The notes beneath the pieces are model-generated. The model saw only the letters and a program-made list of their open reading frames with translations, did not search any database and was not told the origin of the DNA. 64,000 nucleotides of DNA, taken from the NCBI GenBank assembly GCA_025937835.1, contig JAICQO010000026.1, positions 1-64,000 of the forward strand, written 5' to 3'. Made by a program: the position numbers and the translations under genes. This document shows, piece by piece, positions 10,252-63,021 of this stretch. The stretch comes from Polyangiaceae bacterium (GTDB taxonomy: Bacteria > Myxococcota_A > Polyangia > Polyangiales > Polyangiaceae). How positions within the stretch are numbered: the first letter of the stretch is position 1; every line of letters starts with the position of its first letter.

Positions 10252-11223
10252 TCAGGCGCGTGCGCGCCGCAGCATCCAGGCGAGCGGGACCAGGGCTGCC
10301 GCGAGCGCCGCCTGCGACGCGCCGACCGGTAACTCGAGGAGGAACGCGCACAGGTAGCCGAGCCCGCCGGACAGCGCGCCCGCGGCCACGGCGACCGCCA
10401 TCACTCCTGGAAGTCGCCTGGCGCAGAGCAACCCCGCCGTCGCCGGCAAGACCGCGAACGCGAACACCGGCAGCGCCCCGAGCGCGCGGGTCGCGACCGA
10501 CACCTCTAGCGCGAACACGCTCCAGAACGCGAGCTCGAGCCGCCTCACGGGCAGGCCCTGGACGCGCGCGCCGTCGCGGTCGAAGCCGGCGAACAGCAAC
10601 GGCCGCGTCAGAGCCGCGAGCATTGCCGCGGCCGAAAGTGTGCCTCCCAGCACCCAGAGCACGTCTTCCGGTCGAACCAGCACCGCCGTTCCGAACAGGA
10701 TCGCCGCCACGTCGTGGGCCTCTTGCGCGATCCGCGCCCCGAGCAACACGACCAGCGCCGAGGCCGCGAGATAGACGAACGCCACCGCGGTCTCCTGCGA
10801 CAGGCGGCGCGGCCTCACGCCGAGAAGGAACGCGCAGGCGAGGGTCGTCGTCAGCGCGCACGCGAGCGGCGGTAGTTGAAGCCCACACTGGATTTCGAGG
10901 AAGAACGCCAGCACCACGCCGAGCCCGGCGGCCTGGCTCAGCGTGGCAGTGACGAACACGGCGCGGCGCAGCACCACGAACACGCCGAGCGCTCCGAGCC
11001 CGGCCCCCGCCAGCACGGCGCAGGCGATCGGATCTCGGTACAGGCCGATGCCGTCTACGAACTGCGAGAGCGAGGGGGACGCTTCGACGCCGCTCGCCGC
11101 CTCGTGCGCCACGGTTTTCGCGCTGGCTGCGCTTGCGGCGCCCCGGGTTTCGGCGGGCTCTGTTTCGAGGAGCTGGTCGAATGCATCGAGCTCGGGACGC
11201 ACGCTCGGAGCGGGCTCGGTCAT
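10252..11223 (-). CDS. znuB: Metal ABC transporter permease (ZnuB/ABC-3 family)
   Basis: Inner-membrane channel subunit of a zinc- or manganese-type importer. Of 323 residues, the first ~55 are polar and unusual for the family; the rest is a run of hydrophobic helices with the ABC-3 pattern DPIACAVLAGAGLGALGVFV, later LSQAAGLGVVLAF and, near the end, a Pro/Ala-rich helix pair. The start ATG at 11223 overlaps the stop of the ATPase gene by four bases (ATGA), so the two are translationally coupled. An internal start near residue 55 is possible. Metal choice is inferred from the operon, not from the subunit. Confidence 0.88.
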   Translation of the reverse strand: MTEPAPSVRPELDAFDQLLETEPAETRGAASAASAKTVAHEAASGVEASPSLSQFVDGIGLYRDPIACAVLAGAGLGALGVFVVLRRAVFVTATLSQAAGLGVVLAFFLEIQCGLQLPPLACALTTTLACAFLLGVRPRRLSQETAVAFVYLAASALVVLLGARIAQEAHDVAAILFGTAVLVRPEDVLWVLGGTLSAAAMLAALTRPLLFAGFDRDGARVQGLPVRRLELAFWSVFALEVSVATRALGALPVFAFAVLPATAGLLCARRLPGVMAVAVAAGALSGGLGYLCAFLLELPVGASQAALAAALVPLAWMLRRARA

Positions 11224-11915
11224 GGGCGCGTTCCGTGCGCGGCGTATTCGCCTAGCAGCTCGACGCCGCCCGCAGAGAGCTCGCGGCGCTCGCGATCGAA
11301 GCGCAGGACCCGGTCAGCATACTTTCGTGCGAGCTCGAGCGCGTGGGTGACGACCAGCAGCGACAGCGAAGACTCGCGCTGCACGGCCTTCAAGAGCTGC
11401 CACGCGCTTTCCTCCGCGCCCGCGTCCATCGCCGAGGTGGGTTCGTCGAGCACCGCGAGCTCGCAATCGCTGGCCTGGATGCGCGCCAGCAGCACCCGCT
11501 GCTTCTGACCTTCGGACAGCTCCGAGAACGGCTGCTCGGCGAGCTCGGTCGCGCCCATAAGCTCGAGCGCGCGCAGAACGCGGCGTCGTCGCTGTGCGCG
11601 ACCCGAGAGCCAGCCCTTTTCTCGGAGCGTTCCCATGGCCACCACGTCCTTCACGGCCACGGGATAGTGCGATTCGAGCTCCTGGCGCTGGCCGAGGTAA
11701 GCCAGGCCGAGCCCGGGCCGCTCGTGGCGGACGCTGCCCGAGACCGGCTCCAAGAGCCCGAGCAGCGTCTTGATCCAGGTGGTCTTGCCCGAGCCGTTCT
11801 GACCCGTCACCACCCACAGCTCGCGCGAGCGGATCGTGACGTCGATGGCTGGCAGGATGGCGCGGCCCGAGTAACCGACGCACAGCGCGTGGGCCGAGAG
11901 CAGCGCGTCGCTCAC
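11220..11915 (-). CDS. znuC: Metal ABC transporter ATP-binding protein
   Basis: 231 residues from GTG 11915, which overlaps the stop of the binding-protein gene (GTGA). It has Walker A GQNGSGKTT (38-46), a Q-loop in AYLGQRQELE, the signature LSEGQKQRVLLARI, Walker B LAVLDEPTSAMD and the switch His in LLVVTHALE. It powers uptake of the metal delivered by ZnuA through ZnuB on the cytosolic face of the inner membrane. The frame extends upstream to 13001 but that part overlaps znuA and is spurious. Confidence 0.92.
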   Translation of the reverse strand: MSDALLSAHALCVGYSGRAILPAIDVTIRSRELWVVTGQNGSGKTTWIKTLLGLLEPVSGSVRHERPGLGLAYLGQRQELESHYPVAVKDVVAMGTLREKGWLSGRAQRRRRVLRALELMGATELAEQPFSELSEGQKQRVLLARIQASDCELAVLDEPTSAMDAGAEESAWQLLKAVQRESSLSLLVVTHALELARKYADRVLRFDRERRELSAGGVELLGEYAAHGTRP

Positions 11916-12817
11916 ACGCCCTCCGTGAGCTGCTTCAGGACCTGCTCGATGAATGCGACGTAGCTCTGTCCGCCCTGGAAGTTGGTCGCGCCCGGGATGC
12001 GGAGCAGCTTGCCAGCGAGCTTTTCGGCCACGAGCTGCGACGTGCGCGTCGGATGAAACGCCTCTTGCACGACGGTACGCGCGCCTTTTTGCCGCGCGAG
12101 CGCGATCAGCTCCGCGACGTGACGGGGATCGGGCGGGACACCGGGCTTGGACTCGATGTGATCGACGACGACCAGGCCCGTCCACTCGGCGAGGTACGCG
12201 AGCGAGCGGTGATAGGCGACGATCGGGCGGCCTTTCAGCTTCTCGAGCGACTTTTGAAAGCGTGCCCGGGCATCGCGCAGGCTCGTGACGAACGCCTTCG
12301 TGCGTTCCAGGTACAGGCTGCTGCCCTCGGGGTCGAGCTCGGCGAGGCGCTTGCCGATGCCGACCGCGACGCGCTCCGCAGCTCGCGGGTCTAGCAAATA
12401 GTGCGGGTTGCCGCTCGGGTGGATGTCGCCCTGCGAGCGATCGACTCGGGTCGTGGGACGCTCGAGCAAATCCACGAGCGTCGAGCAATCCAGGAAACCG
12501 CGCGCGCCGAGCTGCACGCGGCCGTTGCGCGAACCGAGCTGCAGCGTAGGAAGCCAACCGAGCTCCAGCTCGGCTCCAACGGCCAAGAGCAGCTCGGCGT
12601 GGCTGAGCTCGAGCGCCAGGCTCGGCTTGGCGTCCACCCAGTGCGGATCTTGTGCGGGTGAGCTGAGCGCCTTCACCGAGACGCGCTCGCCTCCGACGGC
12701 GCTGGCGAGCGCAGCCAGATCGGGCGTGGTCGCGACGACCGACAATTTGGCTTCGGCGCGAGGCGCCGCCCAGAAGCAGGCGGCGCAGAGCAACAGCGAA
12801 AAAATCATGCGGATCAT
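11912..12817 (-). CDS. znuA: Metal-binding periplasmic protein (ZnuA, cluster A-1)
   Basis: 301 residues from ATG 12817 with a signal peptide (MIRMIFSLLLCAACFWAAPR..., cleavage near residue 23). Ligand candidates are His59 (DPHWVDAKP), His139 (GNPHYLLDP), His203 (AYHRSLAYL) and an acidic group in the C-lobe. The ligand triad of His residues suits zinc. The flexible His-rich loop of Gram-negative ZnuA is reduced to QGDIHPSGNPH. Start lies 15 bases after the barrel gene, so the genes are cotranscribed; the next gene overlaps by four bases. Confidence 0.9.
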   Translation of the reverse strand: MIRMIFSLLLCAACFWAAPRAEAKLSVVATTPDLAALASAVGGERVSVKALSSPAQDPHWVDAKPSLALELSHAELLLAVGAELELGWLPTLQLGSRNGRVQLGARGFLDCSTLVDLLERPTTRVDRSQGDIHPSGNPHYLLDPRAAERVAVGIGKRLAELDPEGSSLYLERTKAFVTSLRDARARFQKSLEKLKGRPIVAYHRSLAYLAEWTGLVVVDHIESKPGVPPDPRHVAELIALARQKGARTVVQEAFHPTRTSQLVAEKLAGKLLRIPGATNFQGGQSYVAFIEQVLKQLTEGV

Positions 12818-12832
12818 GCGGATCTCCGAGAA

Positions 12833-14086
12833 TCAAAAGCGGTGGGCGCCGTGCGCGCCGATCGCGAACTCGGCGGCCAGGAAAGCCGCCCAGACGGGCT
12901 TGGAAAAGCCGGAGTCCCGCGAGCCCTGCAAGCGCAGGCGCGAGAACTCCGAGGGCAGGAAGGAGGCCTGAGCGCTGACGCGGGTGCGTGCAGAGCTCCA
13001 CTCGGGGTCGAGCGGATCGTCGACCACGTGGCCGTGCTCGTCGTAGCTCGGCGTGCCGAGCTCGTAGCGGGCTCCGAGCGCGTAGCGGCGCGCGAAGCGC
13101 ACCACGAGCTCACCGTAGCCGCCCGCGTCCAGCGAGCGTCGTTCTTCCAGCTTGCGCCGCCGGAGCAGCCACTCCATCTGCAGCGTGAGCTCGGTTCGCC
13201 CGGTCTCCTTGAGCGGGCGGTACTTGAGATAGGCGTCCATGCCGTAGACCTCGGCGCGATCGCCGTCCTGGTTGCCGTTCGGGCCGAGCGCACCCGACAC
13301 GCCGAAGGCCAGCGACCAGTCGTTCGAGAGCGGGAAGAACTGCTTCAGCGCGGCCACGTACAAAAGGTCGTCGGGGCCCTCGACCTCGACGCCGTCTTCG
13401 CCCGCGAAGCTGCGGGCCGTCGCGTCCTCGCCGACCTTCGTGGCCGAAGCGACGAGCTCGACGTACCAGGGCAGCGGCGTCAGCCAGGACAGCTCGAGGC
13501 CGAGTCCGCGGTTTCCGTCGCCGCCGAAGACGCGCCCGAGCGCGAACGGTTGATCGACGAAGTTCCAGGCATGGAGATGCGTCGAGTTCAGGCGGCCGAA
13601 GCGCGTCAAGAACTGGCCGGCGCGCGCTTGCAGACGCGAGCCGAGGTCCAGGGTCGTGGCGTACGCCTCTTCCAGCTCGACGCCTTCTTCGCCGAATACG
13701 AGCCCTGCGTCGAAGCGAAAGTACGGATCGACCGCGGACCCGAGCGAGAGCTCGAGAGCCTGCAGATTGAAGCCGTTCTCGGCGGGATCGTGCCCGCCCG
13801 TCTGGTGGTGGTCGGGATCGGAGAACGCGGCGAGCGCAAAGTCGGCGATCACGGCGATGTCCGGGTTCAGGCTCTGGACGCCGGCGCCCGGCGAAGGCGA
13901 GCGCGTGGCCTGGGGATCCGCCGCAGCCTGGTCCGCTGCAAGCGCGGCCTGGATTTCAGCGAGGTCGGGGGCCGCAGGCTTTGCGGCGGGTTCGGTCACG
14001 GGAGCTTCCGCCCGCGCGATCTGCGCGGATGCGGCTAGGGCGATGGCGCTCACGGAGCACCTCGAACGAAATGCAAATCGGTTCAA
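12833..14086 (-). CDS. Outer-membrane beta-barrel in the zinc-uptake operon
   Basis: 417 residues if translation begins at TTG 14086, which gives a normal signal peptide (MNRFAFRSRCSVSAIALAAS..., cleavage after ...IARA) and has AGGTG seven bases upstream; GTG 14053 (406 residues) is the alternative. After an Ala/Pro linker, the text shows alternating aromatic beta strands (VDPYFRFDAGLVFGEEG, RFGRLNSTHLHAWNF, LELSWLTPLPWYVELVAS) and ends in Phe (GAHGAHRF), the outer-membrane insertion signal. Similar barrels accompany zinc transporters in other Gram-negatives. It probably lets metal or a metallophore cross the outer membrane; no TonB plug is evident. Confidence 0.75.
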   Translation of the reverse strand: MNRFAFRSRCSVSAIALAASAQIARAEAPVTEPAAKPAAPDLAEIQAALAADQAAADPQATRSPSPGAGVQSLNPDIAVIADFALAAFSDPDHHQTGGHDPAENGFNLQALELSLGSAVDPYFRFDAGLVFGEEGVELEEAYATTLDLGSRLQARAGQFLTRFGRLNSTHLHAWNFVDQPFALGRVFGGDGNRGLGLELSWLTPLPWYVELVASATKVGEDATARSFAGEDGVEVEGPDDLLYVAALKQFFPLSNDWSLAFGVSGALGPNGNQDGDRAEVYGMDAYLKYRPLKETGRTELTLQMEWLLRRRKLEERRSLDAGGYGELVVRFARRYALGARYELGTPSYDEHGHVVDDPLDPEWSSARTRVSAQASFLPSEFSRLRLQGSRDSGFSKPVWAAFLAAEFAIGAHGAHRF

Positions 14087-14231
14087 GCAACACCTGTGCA
14101 CCCGTCGGCCGAGCTGGCCGCGGGCGAATGGAAGGGTCGATACACGGGCGGAGCACGAGCGCTCTGCCCACACGCGAGCGTTCGCGCCGAGCTCGCTTCG
14201 AGAGCCCGGCACGCAACGCGGATCAGACCCT

Positions 14232-14684
14232 CTAGACCGGAGGTGCGAGCTTGGGTGCGACGGCCAAGATTGGCAGGCTCGACTCGGCGCGCGGCGAACC
14301 GGCACCGAGCCGGGGCGCGCGCCCTTCGAGCGTGAGGCAGGAGACACCGGCGTCGCTGGGCGCGAGGGCCGGCGAGGCGCTGAGCGCGGGCACGGTGCAG
14401 TGCTCGTGCTCGTCCTCCGCAGTCGCCGCGGCGCGCAGGGTCGGATCAGCGCTGCGGGGCTCGCTGAAAGCCGCGGGCTCGGCGCTGGAGACGTGGGTGA
14501 GCTCGCCGTGTTCGGCGCACACTGCGTGACTCGAGGTCAGATGGTGCAGCGCCGGCAACACCTGCGCCGAGCCGATCAGCGTCAGCAGCGCCAGGGAAAG
14601 CACGCGCGCGAGCCACGCAAGCGGAGCGTGGGGAGCGTGGCGGGGCGTGCGGGTCGGACCGAGCAAGCCCGGCGAGTCAAGCAC
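14232..14684 (-). CDS. Small exported His/Glu-containing protein, first gene of the zinc operon
   Basis: 150 residues from GTG 14684. A basic start is followed by one hydrophobic segment (LAWLARVLSLALLTLIGSAQ, ~22-41), then HHLTSSHAVCAEHGELTHVS and later EDEHEHC, i.e. clustered His, Cys and acidic residues fit for binding a metal ion. The rest is low-complexity Ala/Pro/Ser. It lies 145 bases upstream of the barrel gene in the same direction and 47 bases from a divergent gene. Role in periplasmic metal handling is an inference from position and composition. Confidence 0.6.
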   Translation of the reverse strand: MLDSPGLLGPTRTPRHAPHAPLAWLARVLSLALLTLIGSAQVLPALHHLTSSHAVCAEHGELTHVSSAEPAAFSEPRSADPTLRAAATAEDEHEHCTVPALSASPALAPSDAGVSCLTLEGRAPRLGAGSPRAESSLPILAVAPKLAPPV

Positions 14685-14731: not shown

Positions 14732-17248
14732 TTGAACTGCCGTGTTGCCTGTTGCCTGGTCCTGGGGTCGGTAGCGCTCGCTGCTCCGCTCCCGGCTCAC
14801 GCCAACGGTCGCTTCCCGCGCGCCGATCTGATCGTGTTCGATCCCAACGAGCCGCAGCGCTTCGTGGTTCGCACGACGTTCGGAGTGCTCGAGTCTCGCG
14901 ACGCGGGCGAAAGCTTCAGCTGGATCTGCGAGAAGGCGTTCGAGCTCGCCGACGAGGAAGATCCGATGCTCGCCGTGACCGACGACGGCTCGCTCGTCGC
15001 CTCCACGCTGGACGGCGTGCTGGTCGGCGGTCGCGACGAGTGCGGCTTCCGCCAGGTGCCCGAGCTCCTCGACGAGATCGTCCCCGACCTGACGCTCGAT
15101 CGCAGCGACCCGCGTCGAGTCCTCGTATTCCGCGCTCGCGGCTTGTTCGACAATCAGTTCGAGTCCGAGCTGCTGTTGTCGGAAGACAACGGCGAGTCCT
15201 TCGCGCCGCTCGGCGAGCCGCTGGCAAAGCAGCTGCTCCCGCTCAGCATCGACATCGCCCCGAGCGACTCCGAGCGCGTCTATCTGACGGCGCGCCTGCC
15301 GCGTGAACAAAAGTACGCGAGCGTCCTGCTCCGCTCCGACGATGGCGGCCAGAGCTTCGAGTCGTATCCGATCGACCTCACGAGCGATCTGGCCCTGGCG
15401 TTCCTCGCTGGGGTGTCGCCGGAAGATCCGTCGCGCGTCTACGTGCGGATCGCCGATCCGCTCGGTACGCGGCTGATGCAGAGCAGCGACGGCGGCGAGT
15501 CGTTCGAGCTCGTGCACCAGGGGACCGGCTCGCTCTCGGGGTTCGCTATCGCGCCCGATGGACGGACGATCGCGTTCGGCGGACCGGTCGACGGCGTATG
15601 GGTCGTGCCGGACGGCGGCGAACCCGAGCAGCGCGCTGCGCTCGGCGTGAGCTGCCTCGGCTGGAACGAAGACGGCCTGTATGCGTGCAGCAACAGCACC
15701 GAGGATTTCGCCGTCGGCCGCTCCAACGACGATGGACGGAGCTTCCGGCGCCTCGTGGCGTTCGAGGAGCTGTGCGGCAACACGCGCTGTCCCGCCGACA
15801 CGCCGGTCGGCGCTCTGTGCGCCCCGGCCTGGAACGCGCAGGGTCCGCTGCTGAACGCGACGTGCAACGTGACCGCGCCACCTACATGCGCGGCAGGCTC
15901 CGCGAGCGGCGGCTCCCGCGGTGGCGCGGGCGGAGCGAGCTCCGGAGGCCGCGCCAACAGCCAGAGCGGAGAGGCCTCGGGTGGTTGCGGCTACGCCCCG
16001 GGCCGCGCGGACCACCGGCTGCTGTTCGCGGCGCTCGTTGCGCTCCTCGCCGTGCGTCGGCTGCGCCGTCGGCGTGCGCTCGCGCCGTTCGCGTTGGCGG
16101 CGACCTGCGCCTGCTCGGGCTCGCGCGAGGTCGAGGCCTACGACGGGCCGCCCGCGTATCCGAACCTGCGTGTCCCGTTCGAAACCGAGGGGCGTCGCGT
16201 GGCCTACGTGTCGAACAGCCTGTCCGACACGATCAGCGTGCTCGATCTCGAAGCGTTCGAGGTTCTGGCGAACGTCCCGGTGGGCCGCGACCCGGTGAGC
16301 GTCGACGGTCCGCACCACCTGGCAATCGATCGCGAGCGCGGCTTTCTGTACGTGGCGCTGTCGTATCCGCTCGCCGCGGAGAGCCTCGGGCCCCACGGGG
16401 GGCACGGGCTGTCGGACCTGTCCGGCTACGTCCAGCGGCTCTCGCTCGACGATCTCGCGCCGCTCGGCGAGGGCCGCGTCGATCCGAGCCCCGGCGACCT
16501 CGTGCTCGGAGCCGGGGGCGAGCGCGTGTTCGTCACGCATTACGATCTGGTCAAGGCGCTCGACCAGACGTTCCTCGAAGAGCGCCGCGCCACGCTGCTC
16601 TGGTTCGAGCCGGCGCCGGAGCTCGGGGTGTCCGCGGGAGCCGTGCGCGTCACGGTCTGCGTCGCGCCCCACGGCGTGCTGCTGCCCGAAGAGGCGGACC
16701 GCGCGTTCATTGCCTGCGCCGGCGAGGACAGCGTGGCGATCGTCGACGTCGCGACCAGCAGCGTCGAGCGCGTGCCCGTCGCCGACTCGATAGGCCGGCC
16801 CGGCTTCCCGATCCACGAGCCGTACGCGCTGCTCGCGGATCGCGAGTTCCGGCGCCTGATCGTCTCCAACCTGTCTGGAAAGAGCCTGATGTCGTTCGCG
16901 GTCGGAGCGAGCCTCACGCGGGAGTGGGTGGCGCCGGTGCTCGGCTTGCCGTATTTCGCCGCCTGGCTCGACGCGGAGCGGGTGCTCGTGCCGCTGCAGA
17001 CGCCTTCCGGAGTCGCGGTGCTCGAGGCGGCGAACGGGCAGCTCGCCGCCGAGGCGTCGTACCGCGACAGCGAATGCGAGAACCCACACGAAGCGGTGGT
17101 CAGCTCCGACGGCCGGGTATTCTTGGTGTGCGAGGGCGACCACGAACGAAACGGCGCGATCGTCGAGCTCGACCGGGACACGCTCGCGATCGAGCGGCGC
17201 GTCGAGGTCGGCGTTTTTCCCGATCGCCTGCTGTTGCGAGAGCCGTAG
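14732..17248 (+). CDS. Secreted BNR-repeat protein with internal MYXO-CTERM tail joined to a YncE-like lipoprotein propeller
   Basis: 838 residues from TTG 14732. Signal peptide (MNCRVACCLVLGSVALAAPL) is followed by BNR/sortilin-like repeats with 'S.DGG.SF' motifs (DAGESF, EDNGESF, DDGGQSF, SDGGESF, NDDGRSF). At ~385-445 come a Gly/Ser linker, GGCGYAPG, a hydrophobic helix (LLFAALVALLAV) and RRLRRRR: a MYXO-CTERM-type tail that normally ends a protein. Here it runs straight, without stop, into ALAPFALAATCACSGS, a lipobox, and a second propeller (VAYVSNSLSDTISVLDLEAF ...) of YncE type. An internal GTG (16052) could start a separate lipoprotein. Both propellers would sit outside the inner membrane. 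Confidence 0.75.
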   Translation: MNCRVACCLVLGSVALAAPLPAHANGRFPRADLIVFDPNEPQRFVVRTTFGVLESRDAGESFSWICEKAFELADEEDPMLAVTDDGSLVASTLDGVLVGGRDECGFRQVPELLDEIVPDLTLDRSDPRRVLVFRARGLFDNQFESELLLSEDNGESFAPLGEPLAKQLLPLSIDIAPSDSERVYLTARLPREQKYASVLLRSDDGGQSFESYPIDLTSDLALAFLAGVSPEDPSRVYVRIADPLGTRLMQSSDGGESFELVHQGTGSLSGFAIAPDGRTIAFGGPVDGVWVVPDGGEPEQRAALGVSCLGWNEDGLYACSNSTEDFAVGRSNDDGRSFRRLVAFEELCGNTRCPADTPVGALCAPAWNAQGPLLNATCNVTAPPTCAAGSASGGSRGGAGGASSGGRANSQSGEASGGCGYAPGRADHRLLFAALVALLAVRRLRRRRALAPFALAATCACSGSREVEAYDGPPAYPNLRVPFETEGRRVAYVSNSLSDTISVLDLEAFEVLANVPVGRDPVSVDGPHHLAIDRERGFLYVALSYPLAAESLGPHGGHGLSDLSGYVQRLSLDDLAPLGEGRVDPSPGDLVLGAGGERVFVTHYDLVKALDQTFLEERRATLLWFEPAPELGVSAGAVRVTVCVAPHGVLLPEEADRAFIACAGEDSVAIVDVATSSVERVPVADSIGRPGFPIHEPYALLADREFRRLIVSNLSGKSLMSFAVGASLTREWVAPVLGLPYFAAWLDAERVLVPLQTPSGVAVLEAANGQLAAEASYRDSECENPHEAVVSSDGRVFLVCEGDHERNGAIVELDRDTLAIERRVEVGVFPDRLLLREP

Positions 17249-17251
17249 CGA

Positions 17252-18739
17252 TCAGAACCCGCTGCAGAACTTCCAACCCGGGAAGCGTGTGGGAACTTCG
17301 TAGCTGCAGGTGCCCTTCGAACAGGCGCGGGTGAAGCGCGGCGTCTGACAGACTTCGTAAAACGTGACCTGCGTCGCCTTGCGATTGCAGTCCGCCTCCG
17401 CCCTGCACGACAGATCGCTGCCGCCCGAGGCGCTGGCGAGGCAGCACACTTCCCCGGGCCAGCAATCGCTGTGCTCGTCGCACCGCACGGGCGTTTGGGG
17501 CGGGTTCGCGTCGAACGGAGTGCCCTGGCAGTTTGCGCTGCAGGCGAAAGTCGGCGTCGTTCCGGACCTCGAGAAGCAACAATCCACGCCGTTCTCGATC
17601 GAACATTCGATGCTGCCGCAAGTGACGGTCGGCGCCACGCAGGCTCCCGCGCCGTCGCAGACCGTGTCCGCGTCCGGGAGGTCCACGTTGGTGCCACACG
17701 CGCTGCCTTCGGCTTTGTAAGTGGCGCCGCAATCCGCCTTCGTCTTGCACTCGCCGACCGACTTGCAGCGATTCGTGTCGATGTTTCCCGGCACGCTCCC
17801 CGTCACGCATTCGGCGTCGAATGCACAGCTCACGGCCGGGCAGCTCGAATCATCCGCGGGCATGACGTCGCACTGGCCCGTGCCGGGGCGGCACGCCATG
17901 CACTGCCCGTCGCAGCTGCTCTCGCAGCACACGCCGTCCACGCAGTGGTCGTTCGCGCACTCGACGTCCGAGTCGCAGCTCTCGCCGAGCGCGCTCTTTG
18001 CCACGGTGCATCCGCCCGCATCGTCACACAGGTGCGTGGAGTCGCACTCCTCGCCCTCGCCACGCGCGATGAAACTGCAGACGCGTTCCCCGCTGCCGCA
18101 TCCGGCCCCGCCGGGCAGGCAGCGGTTCTCCGTGACGGAGCTCGGGTAGTCGCGGCAGGCGGTGTCGGCGGGGCAGGGGATCGCGCCGCACTCGCTGTCG
18201 TCCTCCGGCGCCTGGTCGCAATGACCGTCCTCGCCGCACGCCTGGCAGGCCGAGTCGCAGCGGCTGTCGCAGCACACGTCGCCACCCGTCAGCGTCGCCG
18301 CGCAGTAGCCGGAGCCACATTCGCTGGCATCGTCGCAGCTCTCGCCGAGGCTCTGCTTGCCCTCGACCACACACTCGCCCTCGCCGTCGCACTCGCCGGT
18401 GCCGTCGGCGCAGGACGCTCCGGAGTCCTCGTCGACCGCCTCGCACTCGGCGTCGTAGCTCCGGCACTCGGTGTCCTCTGGGCAATCGACGGGCCCTGGC
18501 GCTCCCGCCGCGCCTGCTTCGCCGCCAGCGTCCGGCGCTCCACCGCCTCCGGAGGTTGGAGCGCCCGCGGCGCCGCTCGAACCACCCAGGCCGGCTCCAG
18601 CACCGCCCGCGTCGTTCGCTCCGGCCGCACCCGTTTCGTCGCCGTCACCGAATACCCGGTCGGTGTCGACGGAGCACGACGCTGCCACGATCAGCACCGA
18701 GCTTATCCCCCAAACACCGCGCAACAAGCTGTGTTTCAC
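17252..18739 (-). CDS. Cys-rich lipoprotein with disulfide repeats
   Basis: 495 residues from GTG 18739, overlapping the preceding stop by four bases. Signal peptide with lipobox (IVAASC), then a Gly/Ala-rich linker (residues ~30-90), then many Cys-containing repeats of the type C..D..C....C..G.C...C (CDDASECGSGYC, CDSRCDSACQACGEDGHC, CVDGVCCESSCDGQCMACRPG). This is the 'Dickkopf-like/Cys-rich' architecture of many myxobacterial surface lipoproteins. It is the last gene of the DUF4380-NAGS cluster. No enzymatic motif is seen; an adhesion or surface role is only an inference. Confidence 0.8.
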   Translation of the reverse strand: MKHSLLRGVWGISSVLIVAASCSVDTDRVFGDGDETGAAGANDAGGAGAGLGGSSGAAGAPTSGGGGAPDAGGEAGAAGAPGPVDCPEDTECRSYDAECEAVDEDSGASCADGTGECDGEGECVVEGKQSLGESCDDASECGSGYCAATLTGGDVCCDSRCDSACQACGEDGHCDQAPEDDSECGAIPCPADTACRDYPSSVTENRCLPGGAGCGSGERVCSFIARGEGEECDSTHLCDDAGGCTVAKSALGESCDSDVECANDHCVDGVCCESSCDGQCMACRPGTGQCDVMPADDSSCPAVSCAFDAECVTGSVPGNIDTNRCKSVGECKTKADCGATYKAEGSACGTNVDLPDADTVCDGAGACVAPTVTCGSIECSIENGVDCCFSRSGTTPTFACSANCQGTPFDANPPQTPVRCDEHSDCWPGEVCCLASASGGSDLSCRAEADCNRKATQVTFYEVCQTPRFTRACSKGTCSYEVPTRFPGWKFCSGF

Positions 18740-62134: not shown

Positions 62135-63021
62135 AGCGAGCGCTGTCTTGGATGCTGCTCTGCGCGGGCGCGTTCGCGGCGTTTCCCGCGCAGGCTTACT
62201 GCATCGCGCGCGCTTGCGACGAAGACGATCCCGGCGCGCAATGCGCGTACGACGGTTTTGGCTGCCCCGTGACCGAGTCGCGGCCGGCGCTGTTCTGGCC
62301 TTCGAAGTGCGTGAGCTTCGGTGTCAACGCTGCCGGCTCGGAGAAGTACGAGATCGACTACGACCTCGCCAACGAGGCGGCCGAGCTCGCCGTCTCGCGC
62401 TGGGTCGAGGCGGACTGCGGCGACGGAGCACCGGGCGTGAAGTTGCTGAACGTCGGACCCGTCGCTTGCGGCGAGGTCGAATACAACCAGACCGGCAACG
62501 CGAACGTCCTCTTGTTCACGGACGAGGAGTGGCCGTTCGGTGACGAACGCCGCACGATCGCCCTGACGATCATTCAGTTCAGCACCGAGACCGGCGAGAT
62601 CTACGACGCGGACATCGCCATCAACTCGGCGAACATGCCGTTCGAATCGCCGAACAACGAAGGCGGGCTGATCCTGTCGTCGGTGCTGACCCACGAGATG
62701 GGTCACTTCCTCGGCCTCGGGCACTCGTCGGAGGCCACCGCCGTGATGGCGCCGAGCTACGCCGACACCGAGACCGGCGAGCTCCGGCAAGACGACATCG
62801 ACGGCATCTGCGCGCTTCACCCCCCGGACGAGGCTGCGTCGGAGGCCGAGTGCACTCCGCGGCACGGGTTGTCGAAGCTCTGCGGGGGGCGCGTGCCGAC
62901 GGCCTCGGGCGGTTGCGCCGTCGCGGTCCCGCCGTCGGGCGGAGCGTCGTGGTGGGCGGCGCTGGCCGCACTGGGCTTTGCCCGACTGAAAGCCCGTTGC
63001 CGGGCTCGCCAGGTGCGCTAG
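62131..63021 (+). CDS. Matrixin-like metalloprotease with MYXO-CTERM tail
   Basis: 296 residues from GTG 62131 (GTGA overlap). Signal peptide MKRALSWMLLCAGAFAAFPA; catalytic SSVLTHEMGHFLGLGHSSE gives HExxHxxGxxH and a downstream Met-turn AVMAPSY, the pattern of metzincins (matrixin, M10). After a Pro/Cys linker comes GGCAVAVPPSGGASWWAALA and ARLKARCRARQ, a MYXO-CTERM-type tail. It should be exported and anchored or released at the outer surface. Confidence 0.9.
   Translation: MKRALSWMLLCAGAFAAFPAQAYCIARACDEDDPGAQCAYDGFGCPVTESRPALFWPSKCVSFGVNAAGSEKYEIDYDLANEAAELAVSRWVEADCGDGAPGVKLLNVGPVACGEVEYNQTGNANVLLFTDEEWPFGDERRTIALTIIQFSTETGEIYDADIAINSANMPFESPNNEGGLILSSVLTHEMGHFLGLGHSSEATAVMAPSYADTETGELRQDDIDGICALHPPDEAASEAECTPRHGLSKLCGGRVPTASGGCAVAVPPSGGASWWAALAALGFARLKARCRARQVR

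Follow-up and report, generated by a model that had tools for sequence, protein, structure and literature searches.

A Polyangiaceae open reading frame joining a propeller with a MYXO-CTERM-like tail to a propeller lipoprotein, a candidate twice-cut precursor

FbcH of Bradyrhizobium japonicum is a precursor of cytochrome b and cytochrome c1, i.e., of two envelope proteins, and contains an internal signal that is cut. Among myxosortases, MrtX of Myxococcus xanthus cuts MYXO-CTERM proteins and needs the Cys of their motif, and MrtC is predicted in Chondromyces crocatus (Guo, Haft and Wall 2025, PMC11980579). We analyzed a stretch of 64,000 nucleotides from an uncultured Polyangiaceae bacterium (assembly GCA_025937835.1, contig JAICQO010000026.1, positions 1 to 64,000), referred to here as the window, and found a single open reading frame (ORF) that combines two propellers, A and B, with the sorting signals of both. 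The ORF resembles FbcH in that one bacterial precursor holds two envelope proteins and carries an internal signal, whereas FbcH has neither a C-terminal sorting tag nor a lipoprotein signal and its proteins are unrelated to A and B. Like the proteins processed by myxosortases, the ORF has a Cys motif, a hydrophobic helix and an Arg cluster after a secreted domain, and its genome contains MrtC and many other tails. In contrast to them, its tag is internal, with 390 residues following the Arg cluster, and scores under the family cut-off. A literature search found no published bacterial precursor of such layout; the arrangement is new, while the component families are already known. The parts of the ORF are as follows.

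14732-17248, + strand: fused ORF of 838 aa, TTG start, stop TAG at 17246-17248
14732-15901, + strand: part A, N-terminal Sec-type signal and BNR/Vps10-like propeller, residues 1 to ~390
15902-15979, + strand: Gly/Ser-rich linker, residues ~391-416; a like linker precedes the tail in A homologues
15980-16075, + strand: MYXO-CTERM-like tail with GGC motif, hydrophobic stretch and Arg cluster
16052-16054, + strand: in-frame GTG, residue 441, possible separate start of B
16055-16114, + strand: lipoprotein-type signal of B, with n-region RRLRRRR, h-region ALAPFALAAT and CAC; signals of B homologues align here
16115-17245, + strand: part B, YVTN/YncE-like propeller, residues 462-838

The ORF runs for 838 codons without an internal stop, in a frame that is open stop-to-stop since position 14501, and its third-position GC remains coding-like throughout the join (0.79-0.95). 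Along it, the Sec-type signal, propeller A, linker, tail, lipoprotein-type signal and propeller B follow one another, and the signal of B adjoins the Arg cluster of the tail without a gap (RRLRRRR at residues 442-448, ALAPFALAAT-C-A-C at 449-461). The original prediction of a sorting tail in mid-ORF followed by a second secreted propeller was confirmed by this reading and by homologues of both halves. Since A homologues carry the tail, and B homologues the signal, at exactly those places, both signals are more than chance.

Structural models indicate that both halves are beta-propellers. B scored 35.6 bits against TIGR02276 (YVTN repeat; cut-off 27.85), and its AlphaFold model (pLDDT 86) best matched the YVTN propeller 1l0q in Foldseek, with lactonase-type propellers also matching, in agreement with the YncE-like propeller proposed for this half. 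The BNR-repeat assignment proposed for A stood for the fold and not for the family scores: its AlphaFold model (pLDDT 72, with low confidence in the tail and linker) gave best Foldseek matches to GH74 and DAIP-type propellers, while its scores against the BNR/Vps10 models PF02012 and PF15902 (22.9 vs 27 and 21.3 vs 33 bits) were below the gathering score. When the whole ORF was aligned jointly with both families, A rows were misplaced onto B; this alignment was discarded, and the halves were modelled separately. The conserved residues of both propellers are retained in the window ORF, including the invariant Cys of B.

The tail has the tripartite MYXO-CTERM layout, i.e., the Cys motif GGCGYAPGR (Cys419, codon 15986-15988), the hydrophobic stretch LLFAALVALLAV (residues 430-441, 16019-16054) and the Arg cluster RRLRRRR (residues 442-448, 16055-16075). 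Against TIGR03901 it aligned to model positions 3-33 of 34 with 10.4 bits, below the curated cut-off of 20; its description as a MYXO-CTERM-type tail is thus borne out by its layout and its place in A homologues, and weakened by this score. We found about 26 other tails in the same genome, with TIGR03901 scores from 38.7 down to about 14 bits; the other genuine tails of the genome end shortly past the Arg cluster, no more than about 30-60 residues beyond the Cys. MrtC is encoded in the genome as well (L174; NF040594, 280.3 bits vs a cut-off of 195), and single-Cys tails are the usual form within the genus of the window. We also scanned ~1 Mb of fetched loci with a homemade tail profile, built partly from tails that it found itself, and obtained 51 tails of at least 12 bits, of which 50 lie no more than 35 residues from the stop and one at 38. 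The window tail is missing from that list because its Gly-rich linker lowers its whole-sequence score. A second MYXO-CTERM-like tail occurs in the window at 62908-63003 on the + strand (GGCAVAVPPSGG...RLKARCRARQVR, then a stop), with a TIGR03901 score of 14.1 bits.

The lipoprotein signal of B is internal to the 838-aa ORF and becomes N-terminal only if the GTG at 16052 starts B. This GTG is present in frame as residue 441, as originally predicted, and read from it the signal is complete: MRRLRRRR-ALAPFALAATCA-C. No ribosome-binding sequence is evident before it, nor before the start of A itself. PROSITE PS51257 calls for a Cys 15-35 residues after a start together with an early basic residue, and its sole match in the ORF, valid only with the internal GTG taken as start, ends at Cys461 (codon 16112-16114), position 21 counted from the GTG; the stricter form [LVI]-x-[GAS]-C fails. 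Cys459, with Thr at -1, fails PS51257. In close relatives the lipobox Cys aligns with Cys461 (LCAC in the same-genome paralogue, VSAC in G001, ICAC in L082), and the window lipobox, TCAC with Thr at -3, is weaker than theirs. From the Thr at -1 of Cys459 and the alignment of the lipobox Cys of close relatives, Cys461 is most likely the lipid-bearing residue. The lipobox read earlier as LAATCAC therefore stands as a lipoprotein-type signal, with a weak motif and with the predicted lipid Cys at 461 and not 459. In total, 53 of 71 B homologues match PS51257 near the aligned place, and many of the remaining ones keep a Cys there, one position short of the pattern (e.g., LPAC).

We asked how A and B are encoded in relatives. 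With the whole ORF as query, 59 relatives, the genus and 144 class genomes yielded no A-B fusion elsewhere, only the window place spanning both halves. Further B loci came from 108 family genomes and 183 order genomes queried with B only, and from a scan of named genomes; at these loci A and B were always separate matches. All of these genome sets overlap. The original prediction called for a stop between the halves to be looked for in relatives; we followed 43 A homologues to their end, and 42 of them hit a stop soon after the tail region, while the contig of the remaining one ends first. A Cys motif, hydrophobic stretch and basic residues mark the end in nearly all 43. In the 37 whose spacing a pattern could measure, 31-69 residues (median 41) separate the motif Cys from the end, against ~420 in the window ORF. 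B homologues are genes of their own, each with its own signal and Cys. The unfused A and B genes of Polyangiales, such as those at L088, L089, L107 and L122, comprise the same two families and signals, often as neighbours; there A stops after the tail and B has its own start, whereas here one ORF holds both. That the window ORF represents two ordinarily separate genes merged, as had been proposed, is strongly supported by these comparisons, in which all relatives found keep A and B apart with complete signals. In the B tree, four rows form the fully supported sister group of the window copy; all four are separate genes, the same-genome paralogue and G001 among them. The A copy of the window lies on a long branch with no close kin. 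The 12770-base contig of G001 recurs as L181 (Sorangium sp. isolate bin s1), which places an assembly labelled Sorangium sp. in the genus of the window. Open frames of 859-908 codons upstream of B in some relatives were rejected as further joins; they differ between sister species and have no A match, and were taken as chance open frames in GC-rich DNA.

Of the 72 fetched loci with B, 30 have A as a neighbour. The two genes diverge at 17 of these, share one direction in the order B-cytochrome-A at seven and are mixed at three, and in the remaining three (L122, L124 and L129) A lies upstream of B in the same direction, ~1 kb apart; L122 and L124 are not independent, having identical A and identical B sequences. 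On contig 30 of G268, A also lies upstream of B as a separate gene. In 49 of the 72 loci, B is found together with a di-haem cytochrome c lipoprotein. B and this lipoprotein (~240 aa, PF13442), often with A, form a recurrent conserved set across Polyangiales, with all three genes on one strand at L067, L086, L088, L089, L094, L121 and L187, and the set also occurs at L064 and other loci. We know of no description of this set. While the cytochrome gene often adjoins separate B genes, it is absent from the window, and the one copy found in this genome is on contig C44, near the B paralogue. From the surface-sorting tag of A, the lipoprotein signal of B and the di-haem cytochrome c as the usual third neighbour, we infer that the A and B propellers may be partners in an envelope complex, possibly for redox or substrate binding. 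The genes around the fused ORF, i.e., the zinc-uptake genes upstream and the downstream genes, are not common to the A or B loci of relatives. On the - strand at 11220-14684, divergent from the ORF, are genes for a ZnuA-type zinc-binding protein, an ABC ATPase and a porin-like protein, and among them one for a small His-containing secreted protein (14232-14684). A gene for a Cys-rich lipoprotein-like protein with no Pfam match, also on the - strand (17252-18739, start approximate), converges on the fused ORF, its end lying 3 bases beyond that of the ORF.

The reading we prefer, at close to an even chance, is that linked genes for A, a MYXO-CTERM-tagged BNR propeller, and B, a YVTN-propeller lipoprotein, merged in frame in this lineage and that the precursor is probably cut twice. 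The Arg cluster that ends the tail of A would double as the n-region of the signal of B. The N-terminal signal of A would take the precursor through Sec, the tail would stop transfer and leave RRLRRRR in the cytoplasm, and the 10-residue hydrophobic stretch after the cluster would restart transfer and lead B outward. MrtC would cut near Cys419, and Lgt/LspA would acylate and cut at Cys461, to give two separately anchored propellers and a hairpin remnant of ~40 residues. The topology, both cuts and any selection for the fusion are inferred, and a twice-cut polyprotein is consistent with the anatomy of the ORF and with MrtC in the genome. We counted in favor of the merger the continuous ORF, the signals at the places of the homologues, the A-B linkage, MrtC and the about 26 other tails, the other two frames having no stop close to the join, the retained conserved residues of both propellers and the Cys-dependent cutting by MrtX, and against it the single assembly, the separate genes in relatives, the sub-cut-off tail, the Thr at -3 of the lipobox and the lack of a published precursor of this kind. 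That the protein works as a surface polyprotein, in which an internal MYXO-CTERM tag and cuts by myxosortase and LspA would yield from one start equal amounts of two differently anchored propellers, is a rather doubtful possibility. It is quite unlikely that the fusion is left uncut at one or both signals, with the propellers tethered by a membrane hairpin or one surviving link; the low tail score and the Thr at -3 could reflect relaxed processing, and a myxosortase may require a free C-terminus near its site, but neither key cysteine has been lost, the Arg cluster is retained, MrtC is present and single-Cys tails are usual in the genus.

We also considered an assembly or sequence error at the join: the organism would have two adjacent genes, and the assembly would have dropped A's stop along with a short spacer ahead of B, or carry a miscalled stop codon. 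The fusion is seen in one fragmented assembly only (227 contigs, metagenome-type), all relatives have two genes, and separate A genes upstream of B are known at the loci given above. However, the join keeps both signals complete and in frame, and of the other two frames past it, one first stops at 16296 and the other has no stop before 16700, so no single indel would place the end of A where it lies in relatives. A frameshift error splitting the halves is ruled against by the listing of stops in all frames, none of which lies near the join. The refutation envisaged in the original prediction, two genes in relatives with a stop or frameshift hidden here, held in its first part, while the sequence shows no sign of either a stop or a frameshift. 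Overall we regard such an error as unlikely. A very unlikely alternative is that the stop of A was lost with little effect: B would be an ordinary lipoprotein translated mainly from the GTG at 16052, and the longer read-through protein a by-product. B would then have a complete lipoprotein signal with its Cys at position 21, and the same-genome B paralogue (L064) probably starts at a GTG just ahead of its signal, but a ribosome-binding sequence is not evident before the GTG at 16052, although the start of A is likewise without one.

The in-frame merger of linked genes, found a single time and with both sorting signals preserved, is a genuine observation. Provided that the join exists in the organism and did not arise in assembly, it would represent a rare bacterial polyprotein in which a C-terminal sorting tag can function from within a protein, and the need of myxosortase for a free C-terminus near its site would become testable. 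Furthermore, A, B and the frequently neighbouring di-haem cytochrome c are marked as likely functional partners.
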